Positions 4,394-28,471 of a DNA stretch of 29,221 nucleotides are shown piece by piece. Made by a program: the position numbers and the translations under genes. This DNA is from a virus, in IMG/VR virus record IMGVR_UViG_3300005577_000804, positions 1 through 29,221 of that record. One strand, given 5' to 3'. Within the stretch, counting starts at the first letter, position 1; each line of letters starts with the position of its first letter. The notes below the pieces were generated by a model, which was not told where the DNA came from, did no database searches, and worked only from the letters and a program-made list of their open reading frames with translations.

Positions 4394-5404
4394 ATGAATA
4401 TATTTAATAACAAAGGTGAGCTCAATGCTTCATCGCTCCAAGAAGCGATGCAGACGCTTGCTAAATTCGCTTCCGTTTTGGAAGAGAATGCCCCCTCAAA
4501 TTTAGCTCTCTCAAGTCAGTCAGCTCTCTCAGTTAATGCTCGTGATGAGTTAATTGAGCGCGCTATTATGTCACATGAGGGTAAAATTGCTCTAGCTCAG
4601 GCTATGGCTAACCCCATTCGCAAAAACCTTGATTATCAAGGTATTGCCCGCAGAGCACTCGTTGTTGACCCGCTTCCGCAAGGTGCTTTACCGGTTTATG
4701 ACCGTGATATTGATGTAACTGCTGTTGTAATTTCAAGCAACGGTTCAGGTCCCGAGAGCCGTGTATTCGGTGATCGCGTATCAGTTCCTACGTTTGAATT
4801 ATTCTCAAATCCTACTGTTCGTATTTCTGAGGTTCGTCGTCGTCGTTTCAACGTCATCGACCGTGCTGTTCAGAAAGCTCGTCAGGAAATCATGGCTCAA
4901 GAAGATGCTAACGTCTTCGCTGCTCTTGATTCAGCCGGTGGTGTTGAAAACGTTGTTCAGGATATCGCCGATGGTGGTATGCTCAAACGCGACTTAGTTG
5001 AAATTAAGGTCCAGATTGATCGCTGGGACTTGGTTACTACGAAGTTCTTCATGAATATCTCTGAGTACACCGATATCCTTAACTGGGCTTCTGGTGGTGG
5101 TCAGGGTCCCACGGGCGGTGAAATCGATCCCGTAACTCAGCGTGAAGTTCTCCAGACTGGTCTATTTGCTCATATCTGGGGTGCTGATCTAATGGTATCA
5201 AAGATTGTTCCGCCTGGTACGGTTTATGGTTGTGCTGATCCGGAATTCGTAGGCGTAATGCCCGTTCGCCAGGAGATTGAAGTATATCCGGCTGACGAAC
5301 CTAAGCAGTTAAAGCTCGGGTGGGTAATCAGCGAAGAAATAGGAATTTGTATTGCAAATTCGAGGGGTTGCGCTGTTGGTCGTAAGTCAACTGCTGTTGG
5401 CTGA
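4394..5404 (+). CDS. major capsid protein, HK97 fold
   Basis: This 336-residue protein forms the icosahedral head shell. I recognise the family from phrases shared by major capsid proteins of many large myoviruses: a helical N-terminal segment (about 1-75), then NPIRKNLDYQGIARRALVVD (about 73-92), LPVYDRDIDV, the RVFGDRVSVPTFELFSNP stretch, FNVIDRAVQKARQEIMAQED on the presumed spine helix, and a late strand with QLKLGWVISEEIGI. Length is at the short end for HK97-fold capsid proteins but complete. The start is fixed by the strong RBS AGGAGA at 4382-4387. It sits directly after the decoration protein and is followed by a strong terminator, so the two probably form the main head transcript. Codon use is richer in C and G than most of the window, consistent with high expression. 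Confidence 0.88.
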   Translation: MNIFNNKGELNASSLQEAMQTLAKFASVLEENAPSNLALSSQSALSVNARDELIERAIMSHEGKIALAQAMANPIRKNLDYQGIARRALVVDPLPQGALPVYDRDIDVTAVVISSNGSGPESRVFGDRVSVPTFELFSNPTVRISEVRRRRFNVIDRAVQKARQEIMAQEDANVFAALDSAGGVENVVQDIADGGMLKRDLVEIKVQIDRWDLVTTKFFMNISEYTDILNWASGGGQGPTGGEIDPVTQREVLQTGLFAHIWGADLMVSKIVPPGTVYGCADPEFVGVMPVRQEIEVYPADEPKQLKLGWVISEEIGICIANSRGCAVGRKSTAVG

Positions 5405-12500: not shown

Positions 12501-15500
12501 ATTATAATTAATGTACCTGCAGCTGGAGCAAGTGTTAATTTCTCTGCCGGCACTACTTCTGGTAATTTAAATGCTGTAACTTTTTCAAATTCAAATGGTA
12601 TAAGTTTTGGATTAAATAATGGTGTTATTACCGCCACTGTAACTCCTGGAGCTGCGGCGGGTATAGCGGCTATTCAAGGTGGAACACAAACAGCAACATC
12701 TGGAACTGTAATATTTAGTAATTCAAATGGTATATCTTTTGGATTATCAAATTCTAGTATAATGACCGCTAGTTATACAGTACCCACTCAAACTGCACAA
12801 ACTGTAGGACTTTATGCCTTAGGTAATACTACTCAAAATAGTTCTACTACATTAGATGCCAGAACTTTAAGTTTTAATGGTTTAGGTGCCGCTACAGTAG
12901 GTTATTCTAATGGGTCTATTCAGATTTCTGTTCCTACACAGACCGCACAAACTCAGAGTAATATTCAGGCTATTTATGATGGTGCTAATTCAATAAGTAC
13001 TGGAACAATTAGATATTCAAATTCAAATGGTGTATCTTTTGGAATTAACGGACAAACTTTAACTGCATCTGTAGCTGCTCAAACTGCGCAGACGGTAGGA
13101 TTATATGCTTTAGGTAATACTACGCAAAATTCCAGCACAACTTTAGATGCTAGAACATTATCATTTAATGGTTTAGGAGCAGCAACTGTAGGATATTCAA
13201 ATGGATCAATTCAAATTTCAGTTCCTAATGCATTAACCAATGTAAATATTTCCGCTGGCACTACATCGAATAATTTAACTAATTTTGTATTTTCAAATTC
13301 AAATAATGTATCTTTCGGATTAAACGGAAGTACTATTACAGCTACGGTAACTACTCCAGCTCAAACCGCTCAGACCATTGGACTTTATGCTTTAGGAAAT
13401 ACTACTCAGAATAGCTCTACTACTTTAGATGCTCGTACTTTAAGTTTCAATGGTTTGGGTATTATCACTGCTGGTTATTCTAATGGATCTATTCAATTAT
13501 CTGCAACTCAATCTGCGCAGACTCAGAACGTAGTCGTACCTTCTGCTGGTACTCAAACAGCAACTTCTGGAACTGTAGTATTTAGCAATTCTAATGGCAT
13601 TTCTTTTGGTATGAGTAATTCTAGTGTTATTACCGCTAGCTATACAGTACCAACTCAAACTGCGCAAACTATAGGTCTTTATGCAATTGGAAATACCACT
13701 CAGAATAGTTCAACTACATTAGACGCAAGAACATTAAGCTTCAATGGTTTGGGAGCTGCAACGGTTGGGTATTCTAATGGATCAATTCAGGTTTCCGTTC
13801 CCACACAAACGGCTCAAACTCAAAGCAATATTCAGGCTATTTATGATGGTGCAAATTCTATTAGTACGGGAACTATTAGATATTCGAATGCTAATGGTGT
13901 TTCATTCGGTATTAATGGTCAAACTTTAACTGGGTCTGTAGCTGCTCAGACAAATCAAACAATTGGGCTTTATGCAATTGGAAATACTACACAGAATTCT
14001 AGTACTACCTTAGATGCTCGTACATTATCTTTTAATGGATTAGGGGCTGCAACAGTTGGATATTCTAATGGATCGATCCAAATTTCAGTTCCTAATGCAT
14101 TAACTAATATAAATATTTCTGCTGGTACAACGAGTAATAATTTAACTAATTTTGTATTTTCAAATTCCAATAACGTATCTTTCGGATTAAATGGAAGTAC
14201 TGTTACAGCTACAGTTACTACTCCAGCTCAAACAAATCAAACAATCGGGCTTTATGCAGTTGGTAATACTACTCAAAATTCCAGTACAACTTTAGATGCT
14301 AGAACTTTGTCTTTTAATGGTTTAGGTATTATTACTGCTGGATATTCTAATGGGTCAGTGCAAATTTCAGCCACTCAATCTGCACAAACTCAAAATGTAG
14401 TTGTACCGTCTGCTGGAACTCAATCTGCAACTTCTGGTACAGTAATATTTAGTAATTCCAATGGTATTAGTTTTGGAATGAGCAATAGTTCTGTAATTAC
14501 TGCTAGTTATACAGTTCCTTCTACTGCCGGTTTAATTTCAGCAATAAATGTTTCTGCAGGCACTACATCTAATAATCTTTCGGCTATTACATTTAGTAAT
14601 TCAAATGGTTTAAGTTTTGGATTAAATGGGTCTGTAGTAACCGGTTCTTACACTGTCCCAACTCAAACAAATCAGACAATTGGATTATACGCTGTTGGAA
14701 ATACTACTCAAAATAGTTCAACTACTTTAGATGCGCGGACATTAAGTTTTGATGGTTTAGGTGCTGCAAGTGTAGGTTATTCAAATGGGTCAGTTCAAAT
14801 TTCTGTACCAGTTCAGTCAGCTCAAAGTCAAAGTAATATTCAGGCTATTTATGACGGTGTAAATTCTATTAGTACTGGAACAATTAGATTTTCAAATGCT
14901 AATGGAGTTTCTTTTGGGGTTAATGGTCAAACTTTAACTGGATCTGTAGCAGCTCAATCTAGAGTTCAAGTTTCACATTTAATGTTTCCTGAAAATCCTT
15001 GGCAAACAAATTATCCAATATCAAATGCAAGTTTTTCATTACAACATTTTAATCCTAAAGTTGATATTCTGGCAACTCAAGCCAATTTATTGATGGCATT
15101 AACAGGAAATACTGATTCTACTGGAGCATTTACTGTAAGTTTAGGTATATATACAATGGCAGGTTCAGTTATGTCATTAGCTTCTTCAAATTCTAGGGTA
15201 ATAACTTGGACTTCTGGATCTCAAACAACTAATTCAAGTGTTTATGGAGGTATTTCTGGAACAAGGTATAGAACTGTAGGATTAAATTGGTCAATATCTG
15301 CTGGCGATTATGTATTAGGTATGTGGTTTAGAACTACAAATAATGGAACTTGGAATGCATTTGGTGTTCAAGGTCCTACTATCGTTGGTGGATTAGATGG
15401 AAATGAAACAAATCATTACTTAAATGGATATTCTACTAGTTCCTATTCAACTGCTATGATTGGAAGCGTAAATGTTACAAATACAAATTATGTTAGAACT

Positions 15501-15551
15501 GGTGGTAATGCATTTCAGCAACCTGGCATAATTTTCTTAGGTAGCTATTAA
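9504..15551 (+). CDS. giant repetitive tail fibre protein 1
   Basis: This 2015-residue protein is an extended, probably trimeric, host-recognition fibre. The N-terminal 250 residues look like the virion-attachment part: GDLSGALPNPSVVDLTI near 76-92, two copies of a 'GxxLYYNGTNWVxL...DGYVLTTH' unit, and two ADHKH motifs at 170-174 and 199-203, whose HxH pairs are known metal sites in some phage fibres. A Gly run at about 140 may be a hinge. Residues about 268-1819 are a long shaft of alternating beta repeats: a 'FSNSNGxSFGxNGS' unit and a 'GLYALGNTTQNSSTTLDAR' unit; I count 13 of the latter including variants. Residues about 1820-2015 form a unique, non-repetitive, Trp/Tyr-rich tip that is the likely receptor-binding domain. 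No enzymatic motif is seen. The RBS is TTGGAG. Confidence 0.85.
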   Translation: MVSARHKNQTIDQGIHSIVAYYYADSTERLATSGFRAYDLYKLAIDLNDNTFWIITNIDGFGNATWQNLVASTGGAVGGDLSGALPNPSVVDLTISGQQQGSILYYNGTNWVVLNPGTDGYVLTTHDVGNNPTWTAASGGGGGANLANTAPVDVTKAAASVGTSLFAARADHKHNILTDVPISIGPVNSEGVSTALARADHKHAVTDLAIPGQTQGDIIFFNGTNWVKLAIGSDGYVLTAHGPGTNPEWDKPATPGPSGIFAGAQLATTGNVTFANSNGISFGMSNFNQITASYTVPSTAGLISNINVSAGTTSNNLSALTFSNSNGLSFGLNGSVITGSYTVPTQTNFVFSNSNGLSFGTNGSTVTGSYTVPNVPVQTNQTEGFYAIGNTVGQSSSSTFDARTLSISGAGIASVGYSGNALIVSVPAGLANINISAGTTSNNLSALTFSNSNGLSFGLNGSVVTGSYTVPTQSNQTEGMYAIGNTAGQSSSSTFDARTMSVSGAGNISVGYSGNALVISGSQSAQTQNVVVPSAGTQSATSGTVIFSNSNGISFGMSNSSVITASYTVPSTAGLLSNVNVSAGTTSNNLSAFVFSNSNNVSFGLNGSTITATVTTPAQTNQSIGLYALGNTTQNSSTTLDARSLSFNGLGIITAGYSNGSIQLSATQSVQTQNVVAPSAGTQTATSGTVIFSNSNGISFGMSNSSVITASYTVPTQTAQTVGLYALGNTTQNSSTTLDARTLSFNGLGAATVGYSNGSIQISVPTQTAQTQSNIQAIYDGANSISTGTIRFSNSNGLSFGINGQTITGSYTVPSTAGLISAINVSAGTTSNNLSAVTFSNSNGLSFGLNGSIITGSYTVPTQSNQTEGRYAVGNTTGQSSSSTFDARTMSVSGAGNISVGYSGGNLVISGTAPSGSLNFSAGTTSNNLTALTFSNSNGVSFGLNGSVVTGSVAAQSNQTAGFYAVGNTTGQSSSSTFDVRTLSLSGAGIASVGYSGNNIIINVPAAGASVNFSAGTTSGNLNAVTFSNSNGISFGLNNGVITATVTPGAAAGIAAIQGGTQTATSGTVIFSNSNGISFGLSNSSIMTASYTVPTQTAQTVGLYALGNTTQNSSTTLDARTLSFNGLGAATVGYSNGSIQISVPTQTAQTQSNIQAIYDGANSISTGTIRYSNSNGVSFGINGQTLTASVAAQTAQTVGLYALGNTTQNSSTTLDARTLSFNGLGAATVGYSNGSIQISVPNALTNVNISAGTTSNNLTNFVFSNSNNVSFGLNGSTITATVTTPAQTAQTIGLYALGNTTQNSSTTLDARTLSFNGLGIITAGYSNGSIQLSATQSAQTQNVVVPSAGTQTATSGTVVFSNSNGISFGMSNSSVITASYTVPTQTAQTIGLYAIGNTTQNSSTTLDARTLSFNGLGAATVGYSNGSIQVSVPTQTAQTQSNIQAIYDGANSISTGTIRYSNANGVSFGINGQTLTGSVAAQTNQTIGLYAIGNTTQNSSTTLDARTLSFNGLGAATVGYSNGSIQISVPNALTNINISAGTTSNNLTNFVFSNSNNVSFGLNGSTVTATVTTPAQTNQTIGLYAVGNTTQNSSTTLDARTLSFNGLGIITAGYSNGSVQISATQSAQTQNVVVPSAGTQSATSGTVIFSNSNGISFGMSNSSVITASYTVPSTAGLISAINVSAGTTSNNLSAITFSNSNGLSFGLNGSVVTGSYTVPTQTNQTIGLYAVGNTTQNSSTTLDARTLSFDGLGAASVGYSNGSVQISVPVQSAQSQSNIQAIYDGVNSISTGTIRFSNANGVSFGVNGQTLTGSVAAQSRVQVSHLMFPENPWQTNYPISNASFSLQHFNPKVDILATQANLLMALTGNTDSTGAFTVSLGIYTMAGSVMSLASSNSRVITWTSGSQTTNSSVYGGISGTRYRTVGLNWSISAGDYVLGMWFRTTNNGTWNAFGVQGPTIVGGLDGNETNHYLNGYSTSSYSTAMIGSVNVTNTNYVRTGGNAFQQPGIIFLGSY
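10308..14951 (+). repeat. protein-level tandem repeats of fibre 1 shaft
   Basis: About 4.6 kb encodes alternating modules, one built on FSNSNG(I/L/V)SFG and the other on (G)LYA(L/I/V)GNTTQNSS or YA(I/V)GNTxGQSSSST. The amino-acid repeats are nearly identical, while the DNA differs mostly at third codon positions, with a few patches of exact DNA identity. Confidence 0.85.
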
Positions 15552-15583: not shown

Positions 15584-18500
15584 ATGGCTGAAAATTTTCA
15601 AGATAATATAAGTTATGGCGGATCAACCTTAGCGGTGAGCGGAGATGCTGTTGCTATAGGATCAACAAATGCCGGAGCAAAAAGTGTTATTTTTAATAAT
15701 ACCGGGTCACAAGGGCATTTAGCGTGGCAACCTACAGCTAATCGAACAATTAATTTACCTGATTCTGGTGGTACTCTCCAATTAACTGGTCAAGCGCCTG
15801 GTGCTCTTGCGGCTGGTACCCAAACTGCTACTTCAGGAACTATAGTATTTAGTAATTCTAATGGTCTTACTTTTGGTATGAGTAATTCCAGTGTAGTCAC
15901 GGCAAGTTATACAGTTCCTTCTACAGCTGGTTTAATCTCTAATATTAACGTTTCCGCCGGTACTACTTCCAATAATCTTTCTGCTCTTACATTTAGTAAT
16001 TCGAATGGTCTAAGTTTTGGATTAAATGGTTCTACTATCACTGGATCATACACAGTTCCAAACGTTCCTGCCCAAACTAATCAAACTGTAGGATTATATG
16101 CTCTAGGTAATACTACACAAAACAGCTCTACTACTTTAGATGCTAGAACTTTGTCATTTAATGGTTTGGGAGCAGCAACTGTAGGATATTCTAATGGATC
16201 GATTCAGGTTTCAGTCCCTGTACAATCAGCACAAACACAAAATGTAATTCAAGCAATATCAGGTGGTACTAGTAGTCAAAGCTCAGGTACTATTGTTTTT
16301 GGAAATTCTAACGGTATTACTTTCGGATTATCAAATGGAACAATTACTGCAACAGTAAACCCTGGAGCTGCAGCAGGTTTAGCAGCAGCACAAGCCGGTA
16401 CTCAAACTGCTACTTCTGGTACGTTAGTATTTAGTAACTCAAACGGTATTTCTTTCGGTATGAGCAATTCTAGCGTTGTTACAGCTAGCTATACTGTACC
16501 TTCTACCGCTGGATTAATTTCAAATATTAATGTTAGTGCAGGTACTACTTCTAATAATCTTTCAGCTGTAACTTTTAGTAACTCTAATGGTTTAGCTTTC
16601 GGATTAAATGGATCGGTTGTAACTGGTTCATATACAGTTCCTACCCAAACTGCTCAGACTATTGGTTTATATGCTTTAGGTAATACTACACAAAACTCTA
16701 GTACAACTTTAGACGCAAGAACATTAAGTTTTAACGGATTAGGTATTATTACAGCTGGATATTCTAACGGCTCTATTCAATTATCAGCTACCCAATCTGC
16801 TCAAACACAAAATGTAGTTGTTCCTTCTGCCGGAACTCAAACTGCTACATCAGGCACTGTAGTATTCAGTAATTCTAACGGTATTTCTTTCGGTATGAGT
16901 AATTCTAGCGTTGTTACAGCTAGCTATACAGTTCCAACACAAACAAATCAAAGTGTAGGCCTTTATGCATTAGGAAATACTACACAGAATAGCTCAACTA
17001 CTTTAGATGCGCGAAGTTTATCTTTTAATGGTTTAGGTATTATTACGGCTGGTTATTCTAACGGATCAATTCAAATTTCAGCCACTCAATCAGCTTATCA
17101 ATTTAGTAACTCAAATAACGTAAGTTTTGGTACAAATGGTTCAACTGTTACTGCTACTGCTACTTTTGCTCAAACTAACCAAACTGTAGGATTATATGCT
17201 TTAGGTAATACTACTCAAAATTCTAGTACTACATTAGACGCTAGAACATTATCTTTTAACGGATTAGGTGCTGCTACAGTCGGTTACTCTAATGGATCAA
17301 TTCAGATTTCAGTACCTACTCAAACTGCTCAAACTCAGAGTAATATTCAAGCAATTTATGATGGAGCAAATTCTATTAGTACCGGAACAATTCGTTTTTC
17401 AAATTCTAATGGAGTTTCTTTCGGAGTTAATGGTCAAACATTAACAGCATCAGTAGCAGCTCAAACAAATCAATCAATCGGCGTTTATGCTGTAAGTAAT
17501 ACTACACAAAGTAGTTCAGGTACCTTAGATGCTCGTTCTTTATCTTTTCAAGGGGCAGGTATAGCTTCTGTTGGTTATACAAATGGATCGGTTGTTATTT
17601 CTGTACCTTCAGGTGGTGCAGGTTCAGTTAATATTTCGGCCGGTACTACTTCAAATAATTTAACTAACTTTGTGTTTTCAAATTCCAATAACGTATCTTT
17701 CGGATTAAATGGATCTACTGTTACCGCTACTGTAACTACTCCTGCACAAACAGCTCAAACTGTCGGTCTTTATGCTTTGGGCAATACTACTCAAAATAGT
17801 TCAACTACTTTGGATGCTCGCACTCTAAGTTTTAATGGGTTGGGTGCAGCTACTGTAGGATATTCTAATGGATCAATTCAAATTTCTGTACCAGTTCAAT
17901 CAGCACAGACTCAAAGCAATATTCAGGCTATTTATGATGGTGCTAATTCAATAAGTACTGGCACAATACAATTTGCCAATGCTAATGGTGTTTCATTTAG
18001 TATTAACGGTCAAACAATAAGTGGTTCAGTTGCAGCTCAAACAAATCAAACTATAGGAATTTATGCTACTTCGAATACTACTGGAGCTTCAAGTTCTAGT
18101 ACTTATGATGCAAGAAGTATAACATTTCAAGGGGCAGGTATAGCTTCAGTTGGTCATTCAAATGGGTCTGTAATTATCAGCGTTCCTTCAGGTGGTGGAG
18201 CTGGTGATGGCGTTAATATATTAGCAGCTGGTACTCAAACCGCTAATACAACCGGAACTGTATTATTTAGCAATTCAAATGGTATTTCTTTTGGTATGAG
18301 TAATAGTTCCATAATTACAGCAAGTTATACAGTTCCTACTCAGACTGCTCAAACTATTGGACTTTATGCCTTAGGTAATACTACACAAAATAGTTCTACT
18401 ACTTTAGATGCACGAACTTTATCTTTTAACGGTTTAGGTATCATTACTGCTGGATATTCTAATGGTTCAATTCAGTTATCTGCTACTCAATCTGCTCAGA

Positions 18501-19945
18501 CACAAAATGTAGTTGTCCCTTCAGCTGGTACACAAACAGCTACTTCTGGAACTGCAATATTTAGCAATTCTAATGGTGTTTCTTTCGGTATGAGTAATAG
18601 TTCTGTTATTACTGCATCATTTAATGGAACTTTAAATTCAGTTGTGTTTTCTAATGCTAATAATATTACTTTCGGGTCTGCTGGTAATACTACAATTACC
18701 GCGTCTTATTTAGGTGTTAATTATTCAGCAGGTACAACCAGTAATAATTTAGGCTCTATAGTATTCAGTAACTCAAATGGAGTATCTTTTGGATTAAATG
18801 GATCAACTATAACAGCTTCAGCTTCATTACAAACTGAGGGGCTTTATGCACTCGGAAATACTGTTGGTCAAAGTTCTTCAACAACTATTGACCCGCGATC
18901 TCAATCAATCTCAGGTATAGGAAATATTTCAGTAGGTTATTCGGCTGGAGCGATTATTATATCAGGATCAGGTGGTGGAGGTGGTGTAGCCTTATCTGCC
19001 GGCACAAATAGTACATCGACTGGAACTGTAGTATTTAGTAATTCAAACGGTATTAGCTTTGGTATGAATACCGATGGTGTTGTTACCGCCTCTGTACCAG
19101 CAATAGCAGGATCAGATGTTGTATTTTCAAATTCAAATAATATAATTTTTGGAAATAATGTCAGCACGATCACAGCAAGCGCAGTGCCTTATAATATATC
19201 CCAATTAGATCCTTTTGGTTATTTGCCAGTTGTTAGCAATTCAGGTTTAGGACAAAATTCATTATATTTCGTTCCATTTGATGTTCCTGAATATTTGAGT
19301 GCTAATCGTATTAATGTTTTCGTTTCAGTGGCAACAACATTCGTTACAACAGCCAATAGCTCTGGTACAGGTGGTTATACTCAAAGTGCAGCAATTTATG
19401 TAAGAGATTCTGGAACAAATAGTACTCGAATAACTTCTCAATGGTCAGGAAGTTGGTTTATGAGTTATTCAGCCAGCAGCGGCACGCAAATAAAAATAAC
19501 ATATCCTAATGGTATTTCGAATTCAACAGCGGTATCTACAAATAGTACCGGATTAACAACATCAAACGCTTCAACATTTCCATTAAATAGCATTGGTGGA
19601 TATAGAGCTATTGCTATGCCGATTAGTTCAATTATGACTCCTGGGCGTTATTGGTTAGCTATAGCTAATTCAAGTACTAGTAATAATGCCGTCGCAATTT
19701 TAAATTGTAGCGTTATGCAAGTTACATATAGTAATAATATAGCTTTTAGACCATTTGGAACATCTTCGGCAGCTAGCAATGCTTCATTTTATGGAATAAG
19801 AGATGGATTAGGTACATATAGCGTTACATCTAACGCTTTCCCTGGAACTGTTATTATGAACTCTGATTCAATTCGAGCAGCAGTTACAGGTATTATTCCA
19901 TATTTTAATTTCTCTGGGTATACAACTGCAACTAATATGATTTAA
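15584..19945 (+). CDS. giant repetitive tail fibre protein 2
   Basis: This 1453-residue protein is a paralogue of the preceding fibre. Its N-terminus (about 1-75) is different and contains the phage-fibre phrase HLAWQPTANRTINLPDSGGT (about 45-64), which resembles attachment segments of other fibres. Residues about 78-1200 repeat the same shaft modules as fibre 1; I count nine 'LYALGNTTQNSS'-type units including variants. Gly-rich breaks near 690, 875 and 1130 may be flexible joints. The C-terminal 250 residues (from about 1203) are unique, Ser/Thr/Asn/Tyr-rich and unlike the tip of fibre 1, so the two fibres probably recognise different receptors or sit at different positions. The RBS AAAGGG at 15569-15574 fixes the start. 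It is 32 bases after fibre 1 and probably cotranscribed. Confidence 0.85.
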   Translation: MAENFQDNISYGGSTLAVSGDAVAIGSTNAGAKSVIFNNTGSQGHLAWQPTANRTINLPDSGGTLQLTGQAPGALAAGTQTATSGTIVFSNSNGLTFGMSNSSVVTASYTVPSTAGLISNINVSAGTTSNNLSALTFSNSNGLSFGLNGSTITGSYTVPNVPAQTNQTVGLYALGNTTQNSSTTLDARTLSFNGLGAATVGYSNGSIQVSVPVQSAQTQNVIQAISGGTSSQSSGTIVFGNSNGITFGLSNGTITATVNPGAAAGLAAAQAGTQTATSGTLVFSNSNGISFGMSNSSVVTASYTVPSTAGLISNINVSAGTTSNNLSAVTFSNSNGLAFGLNGSVVTGSYTVPTQTAQTIGLYALGNTTQNSSTTLDARTLSFNGLGIITAGYSNGSIQLSATQSAQTQNVVVPSAGTQTATSGTVVFSNSNGISFGMSNSSVVTASYTVPTQTNQSVGLYALGNTTQNSSTTLDARSLSFNGLGIITAGYSNGSIQISATQSAYQFSNSNNVSFGTNGSTVTATATFAQTNQTVGLYALGNTTQNSSTTLDARTLSFNGLGAATVGYSNGSIQISVPTQTAQTQSNIQAIYDGANSISTGTIRFSNSNGVSFGVNGQTLTASVAAQTNQSIGVYAVSNTTQSSSGTLDARSLSFQGAGIASVGYTNGSVVISVPSGGAGSVNISAGTTSNNLTNFVFSNSNNVSFGLNGSTVTATVTTPAQTAQTVGLYALGNTTQNSSTTLDARTLSFNGLGAATVGYSNGSIQISVPVQSAQTQSNIQAIYDGANSISTGTIQFANANGVSFSINGQTISGSVAAQTNQTIGIYATSNTTGASSSSTYDARSITFQGAGIASVGHSNGSVIISVPSGGGAGDGVNILAAGTQTANTTGTVLFSNSNGISFGMSNSSIITASYTVPTQTAQTIGLYALGNTTQNSSTTLDARTLSFNGLGIITAGYSNGSIQLSATQSAQTQNVVVPSAGTQTATSGTAIFSNSNGVSFGMSNSSVITASFNGTLNSVVFSNANNITFGSAGNTTITASYLGVNYSAGTTSNNLGSIVFSNSNGVSFGLNGSTITASASLQTEGLYALGNTVGQSSSTTIDPRSQSISGIGNISVGYSAGAIIISGSGGGGGVALSAGTNSTSTGTVVFSNSNGISFGMNTDGVVTASVPAIAGSDVVFSNSNNIIFGNNVSTITASAVPYNISQLDPFGYLPVVSNSGLGQNSLYFVPFDVPEYLSANRINVFVSVATTFVTTANSSGTGGYTQSAAIYVRDSGTNSTRITSQWSGSWFMSYSASSGTQIKITYPNGISNSTAVSTNSTGLTTSNASTFPLNSIGGYRAIAMPISSIMTPGRYWLAIANSSTSNNAVAILNCSVMQVTYSNNIAFRPFGTSSAASNASFYGIRDGLGTYSVTSNAFPGTVIMNSDSIRAAVTGIIPYFNFSGYTTATNMI
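15814..19180 (+). repeat. protein-level tandem repeats of fibre 2 shaft
   Basis: About 3.4 kb encodes the same FSNSNGxSFG and LYALGNTTQNSS modules as fibre 1. Several segments match fibre 1 DNA closely, for example CAAATTCCAATAACGTATCT, present near 14159 and near 17680, suggesting exchange between the two genes. Confidence 0.85.
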
Positions 19946-20829: not shown

Positions 20830-21570
20830 ATGGGAAATAAGCCTGAAATTATAATGATGGATACAGCTGGTGCGCATAATAATGATCTTGAAGGTAGTAG
20901 GGCAAGATTAATGCGTGGAGGTTCTTGGAAACGACAAAATATAGTTGTGGTACTTCCGGCCTCAAATACAATTTCAACAAGAGTTATGTTATCACATTGG
21001 AATTTAGCTTTTCCTCCGAATAACGGTGTTGTGAAAATAATAACTCAAAATATGGAAGTTGGCGACGCTTATTCATCAACCATCGAGATGGTTTTAGCTG
21101 ATCCTAATTTATCTAAGTTTCAATTTTTCTTGTTCATAGAACACGATAACATTCCGCCTTCTGATGCTGTTTTAAAATTGCTTGAAAGAATGGAAGAGCA
21201 TCCAGAATATGCAGCAATTTCGGGCGGATACTGGACAAAAGGGCCCAACGGAGTATTTCAGGCGTGGGGCGACGTTAAGGACCCAGTATTAAATTTTCGC
21301 CCTCAATTACCTGATCCTAACGGTGGTCTTATTGAATGTTGTGGAATTGGTATGGGGTTCGCTATATTTAGATTAGATATGTTTAAAGATGTAAGACTTC
21401 GTAAGCCGTGGTTTCATACTCAAACTGTCGGCGGGGTTAGCACTCAAGATTTATATTTTTGGTCTGATGCTCGTAAGGCAGGATATCGCTGTGCTGTAGA
21501 TTGCAGCATAAAAGTGGGTCATTTTGACGCGGACGGATCGATCGGAGGGATCCCGGAATTTACTTGGTAA
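20830..21570 (+). CDS. GT-A-like glycosyltransferase
   Basis: This 246-residue protein resembles family-2-like (GT-A fold) glycosyltransferases found in tailed phages. After a short N-terminal extension (1-36) come the nucleotide-binding strand NIVVVLPAS (37-45), MEVGDAYSSTIEMVLADP (about 75-92), FLFIEHDNIPP (100-110) in the place of the DxD metal/nucleotide-sugar motif (D106 most likely), a GGYWTKG loop (132-138), a Cys-Gly-Ile-Gly-Met-Gly-Phe segment (171-177), and STQDLYFW (204-211) with an acidic residue where the catalytic base usually lies; a late His (H231) could bind metal. It would transfer a sugar to DNA, virion protein or host glycan; the acceptor cannot be read. No membrane segment. 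It opens a block with a methyltransferase and a desulfurase. The RBS is TTGGAG. Confidence 0.8.
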   Translation: MGNKPEIIMMDTAGAHNNDLEGSRARLMRGGSWKRQNIVVVLPASNTISTRVMLSHWNLAFPPNNGVVKIITQNMEVGDAYSSTIEMVLADPNLSKFQFFLFIEHDNIPPSDAVLKLLERMEEHPEYAAISGGYWTKGPNGVFQAWGDVKDPVLNFRPQLPDPNGGLIECCGIGMGFAIFRLDMFKDVRLRKPWFHTQTVGGVSTQDLYFWSDARKAGYRCAVDCSIKVGHFDADGSIGGIPEFTW

Positions 21571-21572
21571 TG

Positions 21573-21610
21573 ATTTAAATTAATATAATTAATTTAAATT
21601 AATATAATAA
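21573..21610. repeat. 19-base tandem direct repeat
   Basis: A 19-base AT-only unit (ATTTAAATTAATATAATTA) at 21573-21591 is repeated at 21592-21610 with changes only in its last bases. It sits in the short gap between the glycosyltransferase and the GIY-YIG gene, right at the likely insertion edge of the latter. Confidence 0.75.
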
Positions 21611-21618
21611 AGATAATA

Positions 21619-22569
21619 ATGAAGAAAAAAAATGAAGATGAACTTAATAATTTAAATTGTGATATTTGGAAAATATATTTAATTTATCGTATTGATGATA
21701 ATGGTGAAATATGTAATAAAGTTTATATTGGTCAAACATGCCGAAGTATAAATAAAAGATTTCAATGTCACATAACTGATAAAAAAGGAGGATGCATTAA
21801 ATTATTTAATGCATTTAATAAATATGGGCGTGAAAATTTTAGAATTATAACATTAGCTGAAACAAAATGTCATGATTGTGCTAATTATTTAGAAGCAACA
21901 TTAATAAATCAATATGATAGTATTAATAATGGTTATAATATAAGAAATGGTGGCAGTAACGGTAAATTATCTGAAGAGACTAAGAAAAAAATATCTCAAA
22001 GTAGAATTGGTAAATATACCGGTGAAAATAGTTCTTTTTATGGACGCCATCATACTGAAGAAAATAGAAAAAAAATATCTGAATTAACAAAAGCTAGAGT
22101 TCAAGGTGAAGATAATCCTTTTTTCGGTAAGAAACATACTGAAGAAACTAAAAAAATATTAGTTGAGATGACAAAAGCTAGAGTTCAGGGTGAGGATAAT
22201 CCTATGTTTGGTAAAACTCATTCACCAGAAACTATTAAAAAAATTTCACAAAGTAGAATTGGCAAAACCGCTGGAAAGAATAATCCAATGTACGGTAAAA
22301 GACATCCACCAGAATTATTAAAACAAATAGCTGAATCACATAAAGGTCAAGTTGCCTGGAATAAAGGTATACCCAATTCAGAAGCAGCTAGAGAAAAAAT
22401 GAAATTAGCCTGGGTAAAACGAAGAGCTCAAAAAGAATTGGCTAAACAGATGAAAAATTTCTACGGCTCAACAATTGGGGCAAAACTCGATTTAACTGAA
22501 TCAGAGATTGATAATTTAGAAATTAAAGAATTTAAATATAGTTTTCAAAATAATAAGGAAGATAAATGA
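21619..22569 (+). CDS. GIY-YIG homing endonuclease with NUMOD3 repeats
   Basis: This 316-residue protein is a probable free-standing homing endonuclease of the Seg/I-TevI type. The N-terminal GIY-YIG domain (about 16-112) shows IYLIYR (19-24) in the GIY position, VYIGQT (35-40), R47, the catalytic Glu E92 in NYLEATLINQYD, and GYNIRNGG (105-112). It is followed by about four NUMOD3 DNA-binding repeats (roughly 118-145, 146-172, 173-200, 201-228), each of the form E(E)T+KKIS...GE(D/N)NPMFGK, then a basic helical region with the NKGIPNSEAA pattern (248-257). Its end overlaps the methyltransferase as ATGA, so it is translationally coupled to that gene despite being a likely insertion. Catalytic residues look intact. 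Confidence 0.9.
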   Translation: MKKKNEDELNNLNCDIWKIYLIYRIDDNGEICNKVYIGQTCRSINKRFQCHITDKKGGCIKLFNAFNKYGRENFRIITLAETKCHDCANYLEATLINQYDSINNGYNIRNGGSNGKLSEETKKKISQSRIGKYTGENSSFYGRHHTEENRKKISELTKARVQGEDNPFFGKKHTEETKKILVEMTKARVQGEDNPMFGKTHSPETIKKISQSRIGKTAGKNNPMYGKRHPPELLKQIAESHKGQVAWNKGIPNSEAAREKMKLAWVKRRAQKELAKQMKNFYGSTIGAKLDLTESEIDNLEIKEFKYSFQNNKEDK

Positions 22570-23207
22570 CGGAAGTAACAAAGACAGAAGAAGTAAAACC
22601 GCTACGATTGGATTTCGGATGTGGCCCAAATAAACTCAAAGAAGCTGGTAAAGAATTTATTGGCGTTGATGCAATAGCTTTTCCAGGAGTAGATGTTGTA
22701 TTAGATCTCACTGAAAAAGAATCATCAGTTCAGAATAAAGATTTTTCAGTTACACATAAATATAAGAAATGGATTTGGGAAGATAATTCAGTAGATGAGA
22801 TTCATTGTTCACATTTTCTTGAGCATTTAAATATGGAAGAGCGATGTCACTTTATGAATGAGACATATCGTATTTTAAAGCCTGGAGCACAATGTAGAAT
22901 TATTGTACCGCATTGGGCTAGTGCAAGAGCTTATGGTGATGTTACTCATGATCCCATGCCAGTTTCAGAATTCTTTTTTTATTATTTATCAAAGCCGTGG
23001 AGAGAAGCAAATGCACCTCATACGGTAGCTTCTGAAAGAAATCCCAATTTATTTCATGACGAAGTGGATTTTGCTGCAACATGGGGATATTCTTTACATC
23101 AATCATTACTTGTACGAAATCAAGAATATCAGACATTTGCGTTAGGTTTTTTTAAGGAAGCTGCACAAGATATAATTGCAACGCTAACTAAAAATGTAAA
23201 ACAGTAA
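22566..23207 (+). CDS. class I SAM-dependent methyltransferase
   Basis: This 213-residue protein has the SAM-binding motif I LDFGCGPNK (15-23), the acidic ribose-contact strand FIGVDA (31-36), an aspartate strand at VVLDL (44-48), and the post-motif HFLEHL (83-88) followed by YRILKPGAQCRIIVPHW (101-117), typical of the methyltransferase-11-like group often found in sugar or polysaccharide clusters. No DNA target-recognition domain or (D/N)PPY motif is seen, so a DNA base methyltransferase is less likely; a glycan, small-molecule or protein substrate fits better. It starts inside the stop of the GIY-YIG gene (ATGA) and ends three bases before the desulfurase, so the genes form one translational unit with the glycosyltransferase upstream. 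Confidence 0.82.
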   Translation: MTEVTKTEEVKPLRLDFGCGPNKLKEAGKEFIGVDAIAFPGVDVVLDLTEKESSVQNKDFSVTHKYKKWIWEDNSVDEIHCSHFLEHLNMEERCHFMNETYRILKPGAQCRIIVPHWASARAYGDVTHDPMPVSEFFFYYLSKPWREANAPHTVASERNPNLFHDEVDFAATWGYSLHQSLLVRNQEYQTFALGFFKEAAQDIIATLTKNVKQ

Positions 23208-23210
23208 AAT

Positions 23211-24290
23211 TTGAAACATTATTATTTAGATTCGGCCGCACATGTTCCGATGTCAATAGCGGCCCAGAGAGCATATATAGACTTTCAGAATTCAGAAATT
23301 TCACCGGGACATGCTAGTTCATTAAATTTAATTGGAAGAAAAGTATCCGGATTAATTGAAAAAGCTAGAGTAGAAATTTCTGAATTATTGGGGGCTGAAA
23401 AATCTTCACAGATAATATTTACAAATACATGTACGGAGGCATGTAATTGGGCTGTGGAGATAATATTTAATAAAGCTAAAAGTGATATAGTTTATTATTC
23501 TCCATTTGAACATTCTGCTATTAAATATTTAACAGAAACCAAAAATAATATTAAAAAATTAAATATTATAAATGGTAAAGTTAATGAATTTAATAATAAA
23601 TATAATATATGTATGCATGTTCAGAATGAGGTTGGATTAATTCAGCCAATAGAGAAGTTTACTGGATATTTATTTAGTGATATGAGTCAAAGTTTGGGGA
23701 AAATAAAGATAAATTTAAAAGAAAGTAATGTGAATTTAGCTTGTTTTTCCGGACATAAGATTGGGGCCGGGTCAATAGGGATATTATATATAAAAGATAA
23801 TAAGGATTGGGTTACATATGGGATGGGTTCTAGGTATTATCAGGATAGGGTGGGTAGTCCTGATGCGGCTGGAATAATTGGGTTAGCGGCGGGATTGAGG
23901 GATAATTTGAGTAAAATGGATGATAAAGTTATTCAGATGAAAGAATTTAGAGAAAGTTTGGAAAAAAGATTAAAAAGTTATGGATTGAATGTTATATATG
24001 TAGAGGAAGATAGAATAGCGAATATATCGATGATTCATCTTCCGAAGGTAGCTCATTTAGTATTAGATGAGTTATCAGAAAAATTTAATATACATTGCTC
24101 ATTAGGGGCAGCGTGTTCATCGAAGTTAACTACGACAAATCCTACGATGTCAGTTTTAGGATTTGAAGGATCGGTTAATGATTTTTTGCGAATATCTTCA
24201 AATGGGGATTATGGTAAAAAAGATGGTGAATATGTGGCAGAAACAATTATTAATATAACAAAAAATTATAAGGTAAAATATGGAACATAA
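23211..24290 (+). CDS. cysteine desulfurase-like PLP enzyme
   Basis: This 359-residue protein belongs to the class V aminotransferase fold and resembles NifS/IscS cysteine desulfurases, which take sulfur from cysteine as a persulfide. I see YLDSAAHVP (5-13), TNTCTEACNW (71-80), the PLP-stacking His in EHSAI (H101), NEVGLIQPI (139-147), D157 and Q160 in SDMSQSLGK, the PLP lysine in SGHKIGAG (K183), a GSPDAAG loop (215-221), the persulfide cysteine in GAACSS (C302) and the substrate arginine in FLRISS (R327). All catalytic residues are present, so it may be active. It is somewhat shorter than usual (about 390-400). It starts at TTG 23211 with no strong RBS, three bases after the methyltransferase, and overlaps the next gene by 11 bases. 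An aminotransferase or selenocysteine lyase is the alternative. Confidence 0.82.
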   Translation: MKHYYLDSAAHVPMSIAAQRAYIDFQNSEISPGHASSLNLIGRKVSGLIEKARVEISELLGAEKSSQIIFTNTCTEACNWAVEIIFNKAKSDIVYYSPFEHSAIKYLTETKNNIKKLNIINGKVNEFNNKYNICMHVQNEVGLIQPIEKFTGYLFSDMSQSLGKIKINLKESNVNLACFSGHKIGAGSIGILYIKDNKDWVTYGMGSRYYQDRVGSPDAAGIIGLAAGLRDNLSKMDDKVIQMKEFRESLEKRLKSYGLNVIYVEEDRIANISMIHLPKVAHLVLDELSEKFNIHCSLGAACSSKLTTTNPTMSVLGFEGSVNDFLRISSNGDYGKKDGEYVAETIINITKNYKVKYGT

Positions 24291-25182
24291 TATACAGAGT
24301 AATCAGTATGAATTTAAAATTATATCACGAGATGAAATATCAAATGGTAAGGTATTGAAGCAATATGATATAAATAATGAAAAAGTTATTGGGGTTTATG
24401 AGAATGAGCCGTTTATGATTCAATTTAAAAATAATTCTTGGAATAGAGTTCAGGTAAAATTTTCAATTGATGGGACGGATATTTTAACGGGAAAATTGGC
24501 GGATACTAGTGTGACATCGGAAATGTGGGTATGTGAAGCATATTCGACATTAGAGTTAAAAGCATTTCCTGAGACAAATAAAGGCGGAGCTGAATTTATA
24601 TTTGGTAAGGTAAAAGATAGTGTTGCGGTAAATACACATGGAGTTCAGACGGGTATTGGATATATTGCTGTGGCGGTATATGTTGAAGAAAGTATTAATC
24701 AGGATATTTTTAGGAGTTTATTAAGTAACCAAGAAACTATATATAATGCTAAACCTTACTGGCAATATAATAATCATACTTATACATATGGCGGCAGTGG
24801 CGGAAGTTCTTTTGGCAATTCAGGTATATCATATAATATAGGTAGTTTATGTGCTAGTAGTTCTCCAGATGTTGTTATAACAAATTCAGTAACAAATAGT
24901 GTACCAGCAGTTGGAGCTGGAGAATATGTAGCTCAAGAAATAGTAAAAACAGCAGGATTAAAGCAACCGAAGCTTTTTACAACGATGTCAATTAAATATG
25001 AGTGGTGGACTAGTTTGCGTAGTAAGATTAGGCAAACAAATAATAAGCCAATAAATCCAGCATTTCCGGGAGATCATCAGGAAGTGAAAATGTTAGATTT
25101 AAAGAAAACTCCGCGTAAGAGGAAGAGTAGGGCTGAGAATAAAGCTGAAAATAAGTATCCTGAATTAAATCGATTTGGATGA
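24280..25182 (+). CDS. probable virion protein with beta-rich N-terminal domain
   Basis: This 300-residue protein starts within the end of the desulfurase gene. Residues about 48-160 match a beta-rich domain I have seen in many phage and prophage proteins: NEPFMIQFKNNS, WNRVQVKFSIDGTDILTGK, a 'ADTS...' turn, a strand with LELKAF, AEFIFG and a final IGYIAVAVYVEE strand. The family has no confirmed biochemical role that I know of. A Tyr/Gly/Ser-rich linker (about 180-220) follows, then a C-terminal part with YVAQEI, a Trp-containing segment (YEWW) and a strongly basic tail (PRKRKSRAE, about 280-288). The tail could bind nucleic acid or an acidic partner. Translational overlap with the desulfurase is noteworthy but may be incidental. 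Confidence 0.65.
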   Translation: MEHNIQSNQYEFKIISRDEISNGKVLKQYDINNEKVIGVYENEPFMIQFKNNSWNRVQVKFSIDGTDILTGKLADTSVTSEMWVCEAYSTLELKAFPETNKGGAEFIFGKVKDSVAVNTHGVQTGIGYIAVAVYVEESINQDIFRSLLSNQETIYNAKPYWQYNNHTYTYGGSGGSSFGNSGISYNIGSLCASSSPDVVITNSVTNSVPAVGAGEYVAQEIVKTAGLKQPKLFTTMSIKYEWWTSLRSKIRQTNNKPINPAFPGDHQEVKMLDLKKTPRKRKSRAENKAENKYPELNRFG

Positions 25183-25185
25183 TAG

Positions 25186-25533
25186 GTGAAATTAAAGAAG
25201 TCATTGGATGAATTATGTCCTAAGGTAAATTGTGAGATATGTGGAGAGAGTAATAAAGAAATTTTACACAGGCATCATTTAATACCTAGGACAGATTCAA
25301 ATTGTACAAATCATCCATTTAATTTAGCTGTATTATGTCCTAATTGTCATAATTTAACGCATTTGAATGTTATTAAAATAATTGGAGTTTTTCCGTCTAC
25401 AAAAGCATCTGGAAGAATTTTGATATATGTTAGAGATGGAGTTTGCAATGTTCCTGGAATGGAAGATAGTGAACCTTATTATAAACCTGAAGTTGAATTA
25501 ATGAAAGTGAGACCAGATGGCAAAAAAACCTGA
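25186..25533 (+). CDS. small HNH nuclease
   Basis: This 115-residue protein begins at GTG 25186, just after the TGA-TAG pair that ends the preceding gene. It has a compact HNH domain: C16xxC19, HRHHLIPR (28-35) with the catalytic His, N46, and LCPNCH (50-55) followed by H59. This zinc-stabilised form is seen in stand-alone phage HNH proteins. Some phage HNH proteins assist the terminase in DNA packaging, others are homing or accessory nucleases; no terminase is visible here, so the role stays open. The last third (about 68-115) is a short strand-rich tail without known motif. It overlaps the following gene by 17 bases. Confidence 0.8.
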   Translation: MKLKKSLDELCPKVNCEICGESNKEILHRHHLIPRTDSNCTNHPFNLAVLCPNCHNLTHLNVIKIIGVFPSTKASGRILIYVRDGVCNVPGMEDSEPYYKPEVELMKVRPDGKKT

Positions 25534-25870
25534 ATATATACCTCCTTATATAAATCCTAAAAGAATACAAACTGAGGAACAATCGAGAATAAATGTAATA
25601 AATATAGCTACTGGGTTGGGATTAAAGTTTGATGCAGAGGCTATTTTTAGAAAATATGATGCGATTTTGGCTAAGCATCAAAATCCAGATGAGCGAAAGC
25701 AAATAGCTACGATGGCTGCAGCTGAGATTTATAAATTGTTAGGTTTTCAGGACGGATTACAAGTTGGGGGTACTGAAGTAATTCCGCCATCTGAAGCTTA
25801 TATTGCAGCTTTACCGGATAAAAAAGAAGATAAAGTTGAAGATAAGAGTGAAAATAAAATAATTGTTTAA
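25517..25870 (+). CDS. small protein of unknown function
   Basis: This 117-residue protein overlaps the HNH gene by 17 bases. It has a short Pro-rich N-terminus (EYIPPYINPKRIQ), a helical middle (about 18-75) with Ala/Ile/Leu-rich helices (IATMAAAEIYKLLG), and an acidic-basic low-complexity C-terminus rich in Lys, Glu and Asp. There is no catalytic motif, signal peptide or membrane segment. Small helical proteins of this kind are common in phage virion modules. I do not recognise a family. Confidence 0.7.
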   Translation: MAKKPEYIPPYINPKRIQTEEQSRINVINIATGLGLKFDAEAIFRKYDAILAKHQNPDERKQIATMAAAEIYKLLGFQDGLQVGGTEVIPPSEAYIAALPDKKEDKVEDKSENKIIV

Positions 25871-25926: not shown

Positions 25927-26151
25927 ATGACTAATTCAGATAAGAAATATAGTGGTGAAGTTTGTTGGTTTGATAATAAACTAGGGATTGGTTTTATTTT
26001 ATGGGAAGGTGCTAATGATATGTTTGTTCATTTTAGCGATATAGTATCTTCTGGATTTAAGACTTTGAAAAAGGGACAAAAGGTAGAATTTGGTATTGGT
26101 CAAAATAAAAAGGGTGAACCAAAAGCTATTGAAGTTGTAGTTATAGAATGA
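25927..26151 (+). CDS. cold-shock domain protein
   Basis: This 74-residue protein is a complete single cold-shock domain, a small OB-fold that binds single-stranded RNA or DNA. GEVCWFDNKLGIGFI (10-24) covers strand 1 and the RNP1 region, DMFVHFSDI (31-39) is RNP2, and the closing strands are GQKVEFGI and KGEPKAIEVVVIE. RNP1 is degenerate: the usual K-G-F-G-F-I reads L-G-I-G-F-I, so one stacking aromatic is lost. An RNA chaperone or transcript-stability role for phage messages is plausible. The RBS AAGGA at 25916-25920 is well placed. The end overlaps the next gene as ATGA, so the two are coupled. Confidence 0.88.
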   Translation: MTNSDKKYSGEVCWFDNKLGIGFILWEGANDMFVHFSDIVSSGFKTLKKGQKVEFGIGQNKKGEPKAIEVVVIE

Positions 26152-26519
26152 GAAAAATTGTTAAAGAGTTAGAATTTTGGGTATCGAATATAACTGATCT
26201 TAATGTATGTTTATCTGATTTAGCATTAACGATTCCATCTCGAAAAAATGTTAATTTATTAGATAGTAGACATTATTCATATACATTAGAGCAACTTGAA
26301 GCTTCGGCAAAATCTGGTTCTTTAAAAGCTAAGAGTGATAAATTAAAGGTGAGAAAAGTTGCTCCTGAGATTTTAGTTAAGCCGGGGGTGAATGTTTCAA
26401 CGATGCCAAGATTTATTGCTCAAAATTCTCAAAGAACAAAAATTATAATTAATGAAGAAAAATATGAAGAATTGCAAGTAAGTGAAGAAAAATTTGCTGA
26501 AGAAATGAGTGAAGATTAA
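26148..26519 (+). CDS. small phage protein, possibly virion-associated
   Basis: This 123-residue protein is coupled to the cold-shock gene by ATGA. The segment VSNITDLNVCLSDLALTIP (about 12-30), followed by an NLLD...YT.EQLEASAKSGSL pattern (about 36-59), resembles a short module found in many phage proteins encoded among virion genes, in which a 'DLxLxIxxxxxxDL' strand precedes a helix and a 'GxLxxxS' turn. The rest is Lys/Glu-rich, ending in an acidic tail. No enzyme motif is present. Function unknown; the resemblance is a remembered pattern and should be checked by a profile search. Confidence 0.65.
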   Translation: MRKIVKELEFWVSNITDLNVCLSDLALTIPSRKNVNLLDSRHYSYTLEQLEASAKSGSLKAKSDKLKVRKVAPEILVKPGVNVSTMPRFIAQNSQRTKIIINEEKYEELQVSEEKFAEEMSED

Positions 26520-26536
26520 TATTCTTGTATATAGGT

Positions 26537-27538
26537 ATGAGGATATTTAAATTATTTGCAATTCATTTATATTTAATTTTATGTTTTGTTATTTCGTGTG
26601 GTGGTGGAAAAGAAAGTAAAATAAACAATGATGGTGGAGCTGTATCGATGGGAGGTTCGGGTGATGCTGGACTTTATTCTACAGGTCAGGGTGGATTAAT
26701 ATTAAATTTAGGTGGACAAAGTGATTATGATGCTGGAGTAGAAATGGGAGGAGCTCCGGTATATATGTTACCTTCAGATTTTACAAAAGGTAAATTTGGT
26801 GGATATAAATTAGGATCTGAATATACGGGAAATATGGGTGATTCTGGAGGAATGAGTTCGGAATGTGGAACTCAAATTTTAGGAATTGTTAGAGATTTTC
26901 GTGGAAATAATGAAGTAAATGGCCATCCTGATTTTGAACATTTTTTTGGTAATACTCCTTCATTGGGAATAGTTAAAGAAGATTTGGGAATTGATCAGAA
27001 ACCTATTTATTCTGGAAGTGGACCTATTATTGATCCAAATAATAATCAACAAACTACGAGTAAAGAATATTTTGATGAATGGTATAGAAATATAGATGGG
27101 GTAAATGGGCCTTATATAGTATATTTTTATTTTGAGCCTAATGGGAATATATTAAGTTTTGAGAGTACAGCATTTTTTCCATTAGATAAAGCTGGATTTG
27201 GAAATACTCCTGGTCAAATGCATAATTTTGCTTTTACTACTGAAGTGCATACTAAATTTGATTATAAGGGTGGAGAGGTATTTTCTTTTATTGGTGATGA
27301 CGATGTTTGGGTATTTATAAATAATAAATTAGCTATAGATTTGGGAGGGTTACATTCAAAGCAGACGAAATCAATATCTTTGGATGTGGTAGCTAAGGAC
27401 TTAAATATAGAAGTTGGTAAAAATTATAATTTAGATTTATTTCATGCGGAGAGGCATACGATAGAGAGTAATTTTAGAATTGATACAAATTTATCATTTA
27501 CGAATTGTGGAACTATAGTAGATGGTCCGCTTAAATAG
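26537..27538 (+). CDS. lipoprotein with fibro-slime (PA14-like) domain
   Basis: From ATG 26537 the product has 333 residues; a TTG at 26525 would add four. I prefer the ATG because the octamer TTGTATAT then lies 12 bases upstream, as it lies 13 bases upstream of the next gene. Residues 1-21 are a lipoprotein signal: R2 and K5, a hydrophobic core, and Cys21 after FVIS, so the mature protein should be lipid-anchored. A Gly/Ser-rich, low-complexity linker runs to about 95. Residues about 107-325 form a fibro-slime domain: LGIVRDF, HPDFEHFFG, KPIYSGSG, a YFDEWYR segment, FFPLDKAGFGN, HNFAFTTEVH, the GDDDVWVFINNKLAIDLGGLH core and LFHAERHTIESNFRID. The domain is known from myxobacterial and amoebal surface proteins and probably binds carbohydrate. 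A lipoprotein among virion genes could act on the host surface, for example in superinfection exclusion; that is inference. Confidence 0.85.
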   Translation: MRIFKLFAIHLYLILCFVISCGGGKESKINNDGGAVSMGGSGDAGLYSTGQGGLILNLGGQSDYDAGVEMGGAPVYMLPSDFTKGKFGGYKLGSEYTGNMGDSGGMSSECGTQILGIVRDFRGNNEVNGHPDFEHFFGNTPSLGIVKEDLGIDQKPIYSGSGPIIDPNNNQQTTSKEYFDEWYRNIDGVNGPYIVYFYFEPNGNILSFESTAFFPLDKAGFGNTPGQMHNFAFTTEVHTKFDYKGGEVFSFIGDDDVWVFINNKLAIDLGGLHSKQTKSISLDVVAKDLNIEVGKNYNLDLFHAERHTIESNFRIDTNLSFTNCGTIVDGPLK

Positions 27539-27561: not shown

Positions 27562-27577
27562 TTGTATATTCTATATG
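27562..27577 (+). promoter_or_regulatory. TTGTATAT element close to start codon
   Basis: TTGTATAT at 27562-27569 lies 13 bases before the ATG at 27575, and the same octamer at 26525-26532 lies 12 bases before the ATG of the lipoprotein gene. Neither gene has a Shine-Dalgarno sequence. The pair may be -10 elements of very short leaders or translation signals. Confidence 0.3.
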
Positions 27578-28471
27578 GTAACTATACGATCAAGAGGCGA
27601 ACATGCCCAACCCTCGGAAGCAATTCAATTAACTGCTAAATTTTATGATTTTAGTGGTAATTTAACTGATTTGGATTCATTTCCAACTGTTTCTATAATT
27701 CAACCTTCAGGAAATGTAGCGATAACGACTACAAGTGCTGGAGTATATAGGTTAGCAGTTGGAACGTATGCATTTTTGTATCAGATACCGTATACTAGTG
27801 ATTATGGTGTATTTACAGATAGGTGGCAGGGTACATTTGATGGATATGTATTAAAATTTGAGTATAATTTCGTTGTTGAATTAAGTCAGCAGCCTAGTTT
27901 AAATACGGATGGATATGCTGCTTTGGGGGATTTTGTACCATTTAATTATTCACAAACGGCGATAAATAATATAAATCAATTATTAAAGGGATTAAAAGCT
28001 AGATTAAATAGTTCTGGAAAATCTAAAAGAATAGATCAATTTGGAAATGTAGTATATGAAGATTGTGATATTTATACTATAGATCAGTTGGTTGTATTTT
28101 TAGCTACGGCATTAAGTGCATTTAATGAGATTCCTACATTTACTGAATTTACATTTGAAGATTCGGAAATTATGAGAATTTATTATGATGTAATTATGCA
28201 GTATGCTTTAATTTTGGCATTAAGTAGTAAGGCATTATTGGAGAGAGGAAGAGAATTTACTATAACTGATAATGGTGTATCTTTTAATCCACCGGGAGTT
28301 AGTGAAGTTTTAATGACTCAGTATTCGGCAGAGATGGGTAATTGGAATGAAAAGGTAAAATTAATTAAAGCTAATATGAAGCCGAGTCCTTTGGGTTTGA
28401 GTAATTATGCAACTTTAACTTCTCCAAGAATAAGGATATTGCGGAATTTGAGGCAAAGAGTACTTCTGTGA
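27575..28471 (+). CDS. probable virion structural protein
   Basis: This 298-residue protein has an N-terminal Ig-like beta domain (about 12-105) with the phrases AIQLTAKFYDFSGNLTDLDSF, SGNVAI and GVFTDRWQGTFDG, a pattern I know from phage neck and tail-associated proteins in which a beta domain ends in 'DxWxGxxDG'. The middle (about 120-240) is helical, with a Tyr/Leu/Ile-rich helix pair at about 195-225 that is hydrophobic but interrupted by charges. The C-terminus is basic with several Arg. No enzymatic residues are seen. The start is ATG 27575 without RBS. A head-tail connector or neck role is possible. It is followed by a 107-base AT-rich gap. Confidence 0.65.
   Translation: MVTIRSRGEHAQPSEAIQLTAKFYDFSGNLTDLDSFPTVSIIQPSGNVAITTTSAGVYRLAVGTYAFLYQIPYTSDYGVFTDRWQGTFDGYVLKFEYNFVVELSQQPSLNTDGYAALGDFVPFNYSQTAINNINQLLKGLKARLNSSGKSKRIDQFGNVVYEDCDIYTIDQLVVFLATALSAFNEIPTFTEFTFEDSEIMRIYYDVIMQYALILALSSKALLERGREFTITDNGVSFNPPGVSEVLMTQYSAEMGNWNEKVKLIKANMKPSPLGLSNYATLTSPRIRILRNLRQRVLL

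Follow-up and report, generated by a model that had tools for sequence, protein, structure and literature searches.

What does a phage gain from a cysteine desulfurase, and does the enzyme act together with the glycosyltransferase (GT) and methyltransferase (MT) encoded beside it? Desulfurase genes in phages have mostly been recorded as auxiliary metabolic genes of sporadic occurrence. The locus considered here lies on a 29,221-base IMG/VR fragment, referred to throughout in its entirety as the window, and a preliminary description had proposed that the three genes form one pathway placing thio, methyl and sugar groups on DNA, RNA, virion or host glycan. The features of the window that bear on this question are collected in Table 1.

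Table 1. Features of the window used in the analysis
Feature	Coordinates	Strand	Remark
Major head protein, PHROG 2522	4394..5404	+	Puts the fragment in a jumbo/huge-phage lineage
GT-A-like glycosyltransferase (GT)	20830..21570	+	First gene of the GT-MT pair; outside the desulfurase unit
GIY-YIG/NUMOD3 homing endonuclease	21619..22569	+	Inserted between GT and MT; E=3e-32 to 1e-36
SAM methyltransferase (MT)	22566..23207	+	Second gene of the GT-MT pair
Cysteine desulfurase, 359 aa, TTG start	23211..24290	+	Phage-specific, compact, NifS/IscS-like, group I
P5, conserved protein, no assigned function	24280..25182	+	Start overlaps the desulfurase stop
Small HNH protein	25186..25533	+	Conserved downstream neighbour of the desulfurase at nearly all loci; also in relatives without desulfurase
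P7, small conserved protein	25517..25870	+	Follows the HNH gene
P8, lineage marker	26148..26519	+	Plus strand in desulfurase-positive phages, minus in nearly all negatives
P10, lineage marker	27575..28471	+	Behind the phage tree

The window most probably derives from the genome of a huge phage: its major head protein shares 55% identity with gp27 of Bacillus phage G, and on the phage tree its P10 falls beside that of L378, a contig of 459 kb, both being long branches whose exact pairing is uncertain. Several other genes on it deserve mention. Two proteins of 2015 and 1453 aa (9504-15551 and 15584-19945) are giant, fibre-like, rich in Ser/Asn/Gly and highly repetitive, with many near-identical repeats (FSNSNG...SYTVP), and similar repeats are found in two other phages, L008 and L124. 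Just 3' of the major head gene, an ORF (5573-6760) that combines CxC repeats with HNH-like blocks is probably another homing endonuclease, and P8 and P10 are separated by an inserted gene for a Fibro-slime/PA14 domain protein (26525-27538) that was seen, among the related loci, only in the window.

A compact and divergent group I desulfurase

The assignment to the NifS/IscS family is supported by both residues and predicted fold. The six residues singled out in the preliminary description (H101, D157, Q160, K183, C302 and R327) are all where it had placed them, and they align in the same order with H104, D180, Q183, K206, C328 and R354 of E. coli IscS. The protein matches Pfam Aminotran_5 (E=7e-28) and, as its best NCBIfam model, NifS (E=1e-34), but at 119.8 bits, short of the 530.75 required; none of the NCBIfam equivalog cut-offs for NifS, IscS, SufS, CsdA or DndA is reached. 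In the alignment the TTG start codon coincides exactly with the ATG of most relatives. The AlphaFold model (pLDDT 94.7) has the class-V PLP fold of group I cysteine desulfurases, and a structure search with it returned the T. maritima NifS-like protein 1ecx first (E=2.5e-27), with IscS/Nfs1 next. Superposed on 1ecx and E. coli IscS (TM about 0.85), it carries the PLP lysine, His, Asn, Asp, Gln, persulfide Cys and Arg at matching places, and the Schiff-base Lys, catalytic His, Asp/Gln PLP contacts, Arg and persulfide Cys are present and invariant in 17 of 17 phage members. Judged from sequence and model, membership of group I is thus well supported.

The enzyme is nevertheless highly divergent, at 21-28% identity to E. 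coli IscS, a NifS and SufS. Identity to group I enzymes is about 24-28%, the phage proteins forming a clade of their own on a long stem, while E. coli SufS, of group II in the same superfamily, stands at 21% to the window protein and SufS/CsdA branch apart in the trees. Given this divergence and the unreached NCBIfam cut-offs, some other class-V lyase activity is possible; the conserved residues and the model suggest activity on L-cysteine. Compared with E. coli IscS the phage enzyme is shortened, lacking the equivalents of residues 138-145 and 168-174 (two helical segments) and of C-terminal residues 383-390 and 394-403.

The GT-MT pair as a separate cassette

The case for a joint pathway began with gene arrangement: the genes are adjacent, on the same strand, and the MT stop (23207) is followed after 3 bases by the desulfurase start (23211). 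That close spacing stands, but the single run with the GT that the preliminary description reported does not, as the run is interrupted by a mobile element, the GIY-YIG/NUMOD3 homing endonuclease, which splits GT from MT. Recognition of the GT itself is weak, with Glycos_transf_2 at E=0.008, which misses the cut-off, and a PHROG glycosyltransferase match at E=1e-7.

Relatives of the pair were gathered from viral contigs. An MT follows the GT in the same orientation, in many cases after only a few bases, for 128 of the 148 GT genes with room downstream, and MW202524, an unrelated podovirus genome, has the pair intact with neither endonuclease nor desulfurase. Across more than 150 GT/MT viral loci, a desulfurase was found at none except the window; conversely, all relatives of the desulfurase are without GT-MT, and the order GT-MT-desulfurase is shared by no relative. 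With the GTs of L008 and L124, phages outside the desulfurase-positive clade, the window GT shares 69% and 65% identity, whereas its P10 shares only 48-49% with theirs (and 48-57% with those of desulfurase-positive loci), which suggests that the pair was acquired separately. This distribution largely refutes a shared thio/methyl/sugar pathway, and we regard one as extremely improbable. The genes flanking GT-MT pairs match head, scaffold, DNA-ejection, tail-fibre, decoration and lysis families, and a role in virion decoration is plausible from this context. The pair is an independent, mobile and conserved virion-associated cassette, widespread in unrelated phages, whose place next to the desulfurase is, as far as comparative gene order can tell, accidental.

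A core gene of a huge-phage clade

Single-sequence viral scans with the desulfurase and with the MT gave no matches; alignment queries did match. The 17 distinct phage desulfurase sequences form one monophyletic clade (100/100 support) on a long stem, with the window as its first branch under the drawn rooting. In a first tree the window stood as a lone branch of length 4.5, a placement resolved once phage relatives were added. DndA and SspA were left out of the tree, and no DndA above cut-off was found in the 297 genomes where one was sought as a reference. Within the clade 48 columns are invariant, including H101, N139, D157, Q160, H182, K183, C302 and R327, and dN/dS is 0.055-0.15 among comparable pairs, values that point to strong purifying selection.

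Using P10, which lies 27.6 kb into the window, we fetched 77 related loci, seven of which have the desulfurase in the same slot, without GT-MT. A family-specific scan gave 20 desulfurase loci on contigs of up to 458,729 bases, most of them fragments. Gene order there runs from variable genes through the desulfurase and sometimes P5 to HNH, P7, P8 and P10. The slot 5' of HNH-P7-P8-P10 is common to at least 20 loci, with the desulfurase almost always just upstream of the small HNH gene and in most loci overlapping or nearly touching it. P5 is also directly 3' of the desulfurase in L375, L377 and L378 (36-48% identity). HNH-P7 is common in desulfurase-free phages too, so the HNH protein is a neighbour rather than a proven partner.

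The P10 tree unites the desulfurase-positive phages in a single group (96/92) with one change, although the branches leading to the window and to L378 are long; this fits a single gain or loss of the enzyme and therefore an inherited core gene. In five large positive contigs the desulfurase is among about 73 clusters common to all five, and it comes after the terminase and head genes and before the tail genes. Taken at the level of sequence, then, the gene is a vertically inherited core component of the head/tail module in one huge-phage clade.

Among the INPHARED matches listed, desulfurases are 22-31% identical to the window protein and the phage family is absent; none of the plasmid matches listed exceeds about 30% identity to the phage desulfurase. 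Several of the INPHARED desulfurase records look bacterial. Of two examined, both filed as phage, MT835511.1 has its desulfurase beside a BREX-like gene island, and MT835613.1 carries a NifS-IscU-MnmA cluster. Desulfurases have been listed as auxiliary genes in viromes of the Cariaco basin (PMC7785012), Patescibacteriota phages (PMC12911398) and sponges (PMC7863781). Those are catalogue entries, one of them ascribed to a transposable element, whereas here the gene is core across a clade and fixed in synteny. Our literature search found no paper naming both a huge phage and a cysteine desulfurase. A deeply diverged desulfurase subfamily, its catalytic residues intact, thus sits in the structural module across a clade of huge phages, and this raises the testable question of why a phage would need mobilised sulfur.

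Sulfur acceptors and alternative roles

Partners were sought in 20 large contigs, 10 desulfurase-positive and 10 negative, which may be incomplete, so that absence from them is not proof. PAPS_reduct, the domain of DndC and SspD, was found in none of the 10 positive contigs (up to 459 kb), while 14 of 14 control genomes match; MnmA (tRNA_Me_trans), TusA and the NifU_N/IscU scaffold were likewise found in none of the 10. ATP_bind_3 matches in three positive contigs, which at first resembled thiolases, belong to the TilS/TtcA superfamily; the two examined have an SGGLDS loop and look like TilS.

A desulfurase of this class could in principle be the DndA/SspA-type sulfur donor for phosphorothioation of phage DNA, an option the preliminary description had raised, and PADLOC models do match it (SspA E=1e-40, DndA E=4e-38). 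Such models, however, match IscS-like enzymes in general, the NCBIfam DndA model scores 85.9 where 480 is required, and the lack of a DndC/SspD match in the 10 positive contigs speaks against the idea, which we consider scarcely credible. Service to Fe-S proteins of the phage, for example the radical SAM enzymes that some positive contigs encode, is less far-fetched and yet unlikely: radical SAM matches occur in four of 10 positive contigs against nine of 10 negative ones, and the positive contigs have no IscU scaffold to receive the sulfur. IscS binds IscU partly through its C-terminal region, and with that segment mostly missing from the phage enzyme the usual scaffold contact is doubtful.

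The fixed place beside structural genes also invites the thought that the enzyme travels with the particle, either packaged or attached to head or tail, and is delivered on infection. Family 2A encapsulins, which have the HK97 fold, sequester a cysteine desulfurase (PMC11946847). That cargo has a long N-terminal targeting region, whereas the phage proteins have no N-terminal extension ahead of the fold, and the encapsulin-cargo model matches the desulfurase domain only (E=9e-8, model positions 268-462 of 623). Encapsulin-like behaviour is for this reason speculation, and a virion-associated enzyme seems very unlikely.

The reading we favour, and hold to be likely, is that of an active, compact group I desulfurase, vertically inherited as a huge-phage core gene, that passes persulfide to a host acceptor or to an unrecognised one of the phage. 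With PLP bound to K183, the sulfur of L-cysteine would move to C302 to form a persulfide, alanine would be released, and the persulfide would then be handed to an acceptor protein. Because no acceptor is recognisable in the phages and the enzyme is without the C-terminal segment of IscS, the most likely recipient is a host protein (tRNA thiolation, Fe-S or trafficking) or an unrecognised phage protein; supply to host enzymes, the other suggestion of the preliminary description, is the best remaining reading. From the position of its gene, the enzyme would be used late in infection. More narrowly, the clade might have a late sulfur-transfer step of its own, in which the persulfide goes to an unrecognised phage acceptor near HNH-P7 (virion, packaging or nucleic-acid related). 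The outcome would be a sulfur modification peculiar to these phages or a desulfurase carried by the virion, though we think this improbable.

The accessory region around the desulfurase slot holds some further genes. A patatin-like phospholipase occurs there in 34 of the 77 P10-related loci. In four of the desulfurase loci (L365, L374, L375 and L377) it lies directly 5' of the desulfurase, sometimes overlapping its start. Upstream of the desulfurase in L361 (8206-9600), a 465-aa protein without a Pfam match resembles, by eye, CapK/PaaK-type adenylate-forming enzymes. Elsewhere, at L417 (contig G016, 11938-15078), the large subunit of ribonucleotide reductase is split by an intein with a LAGLIDADG domain.
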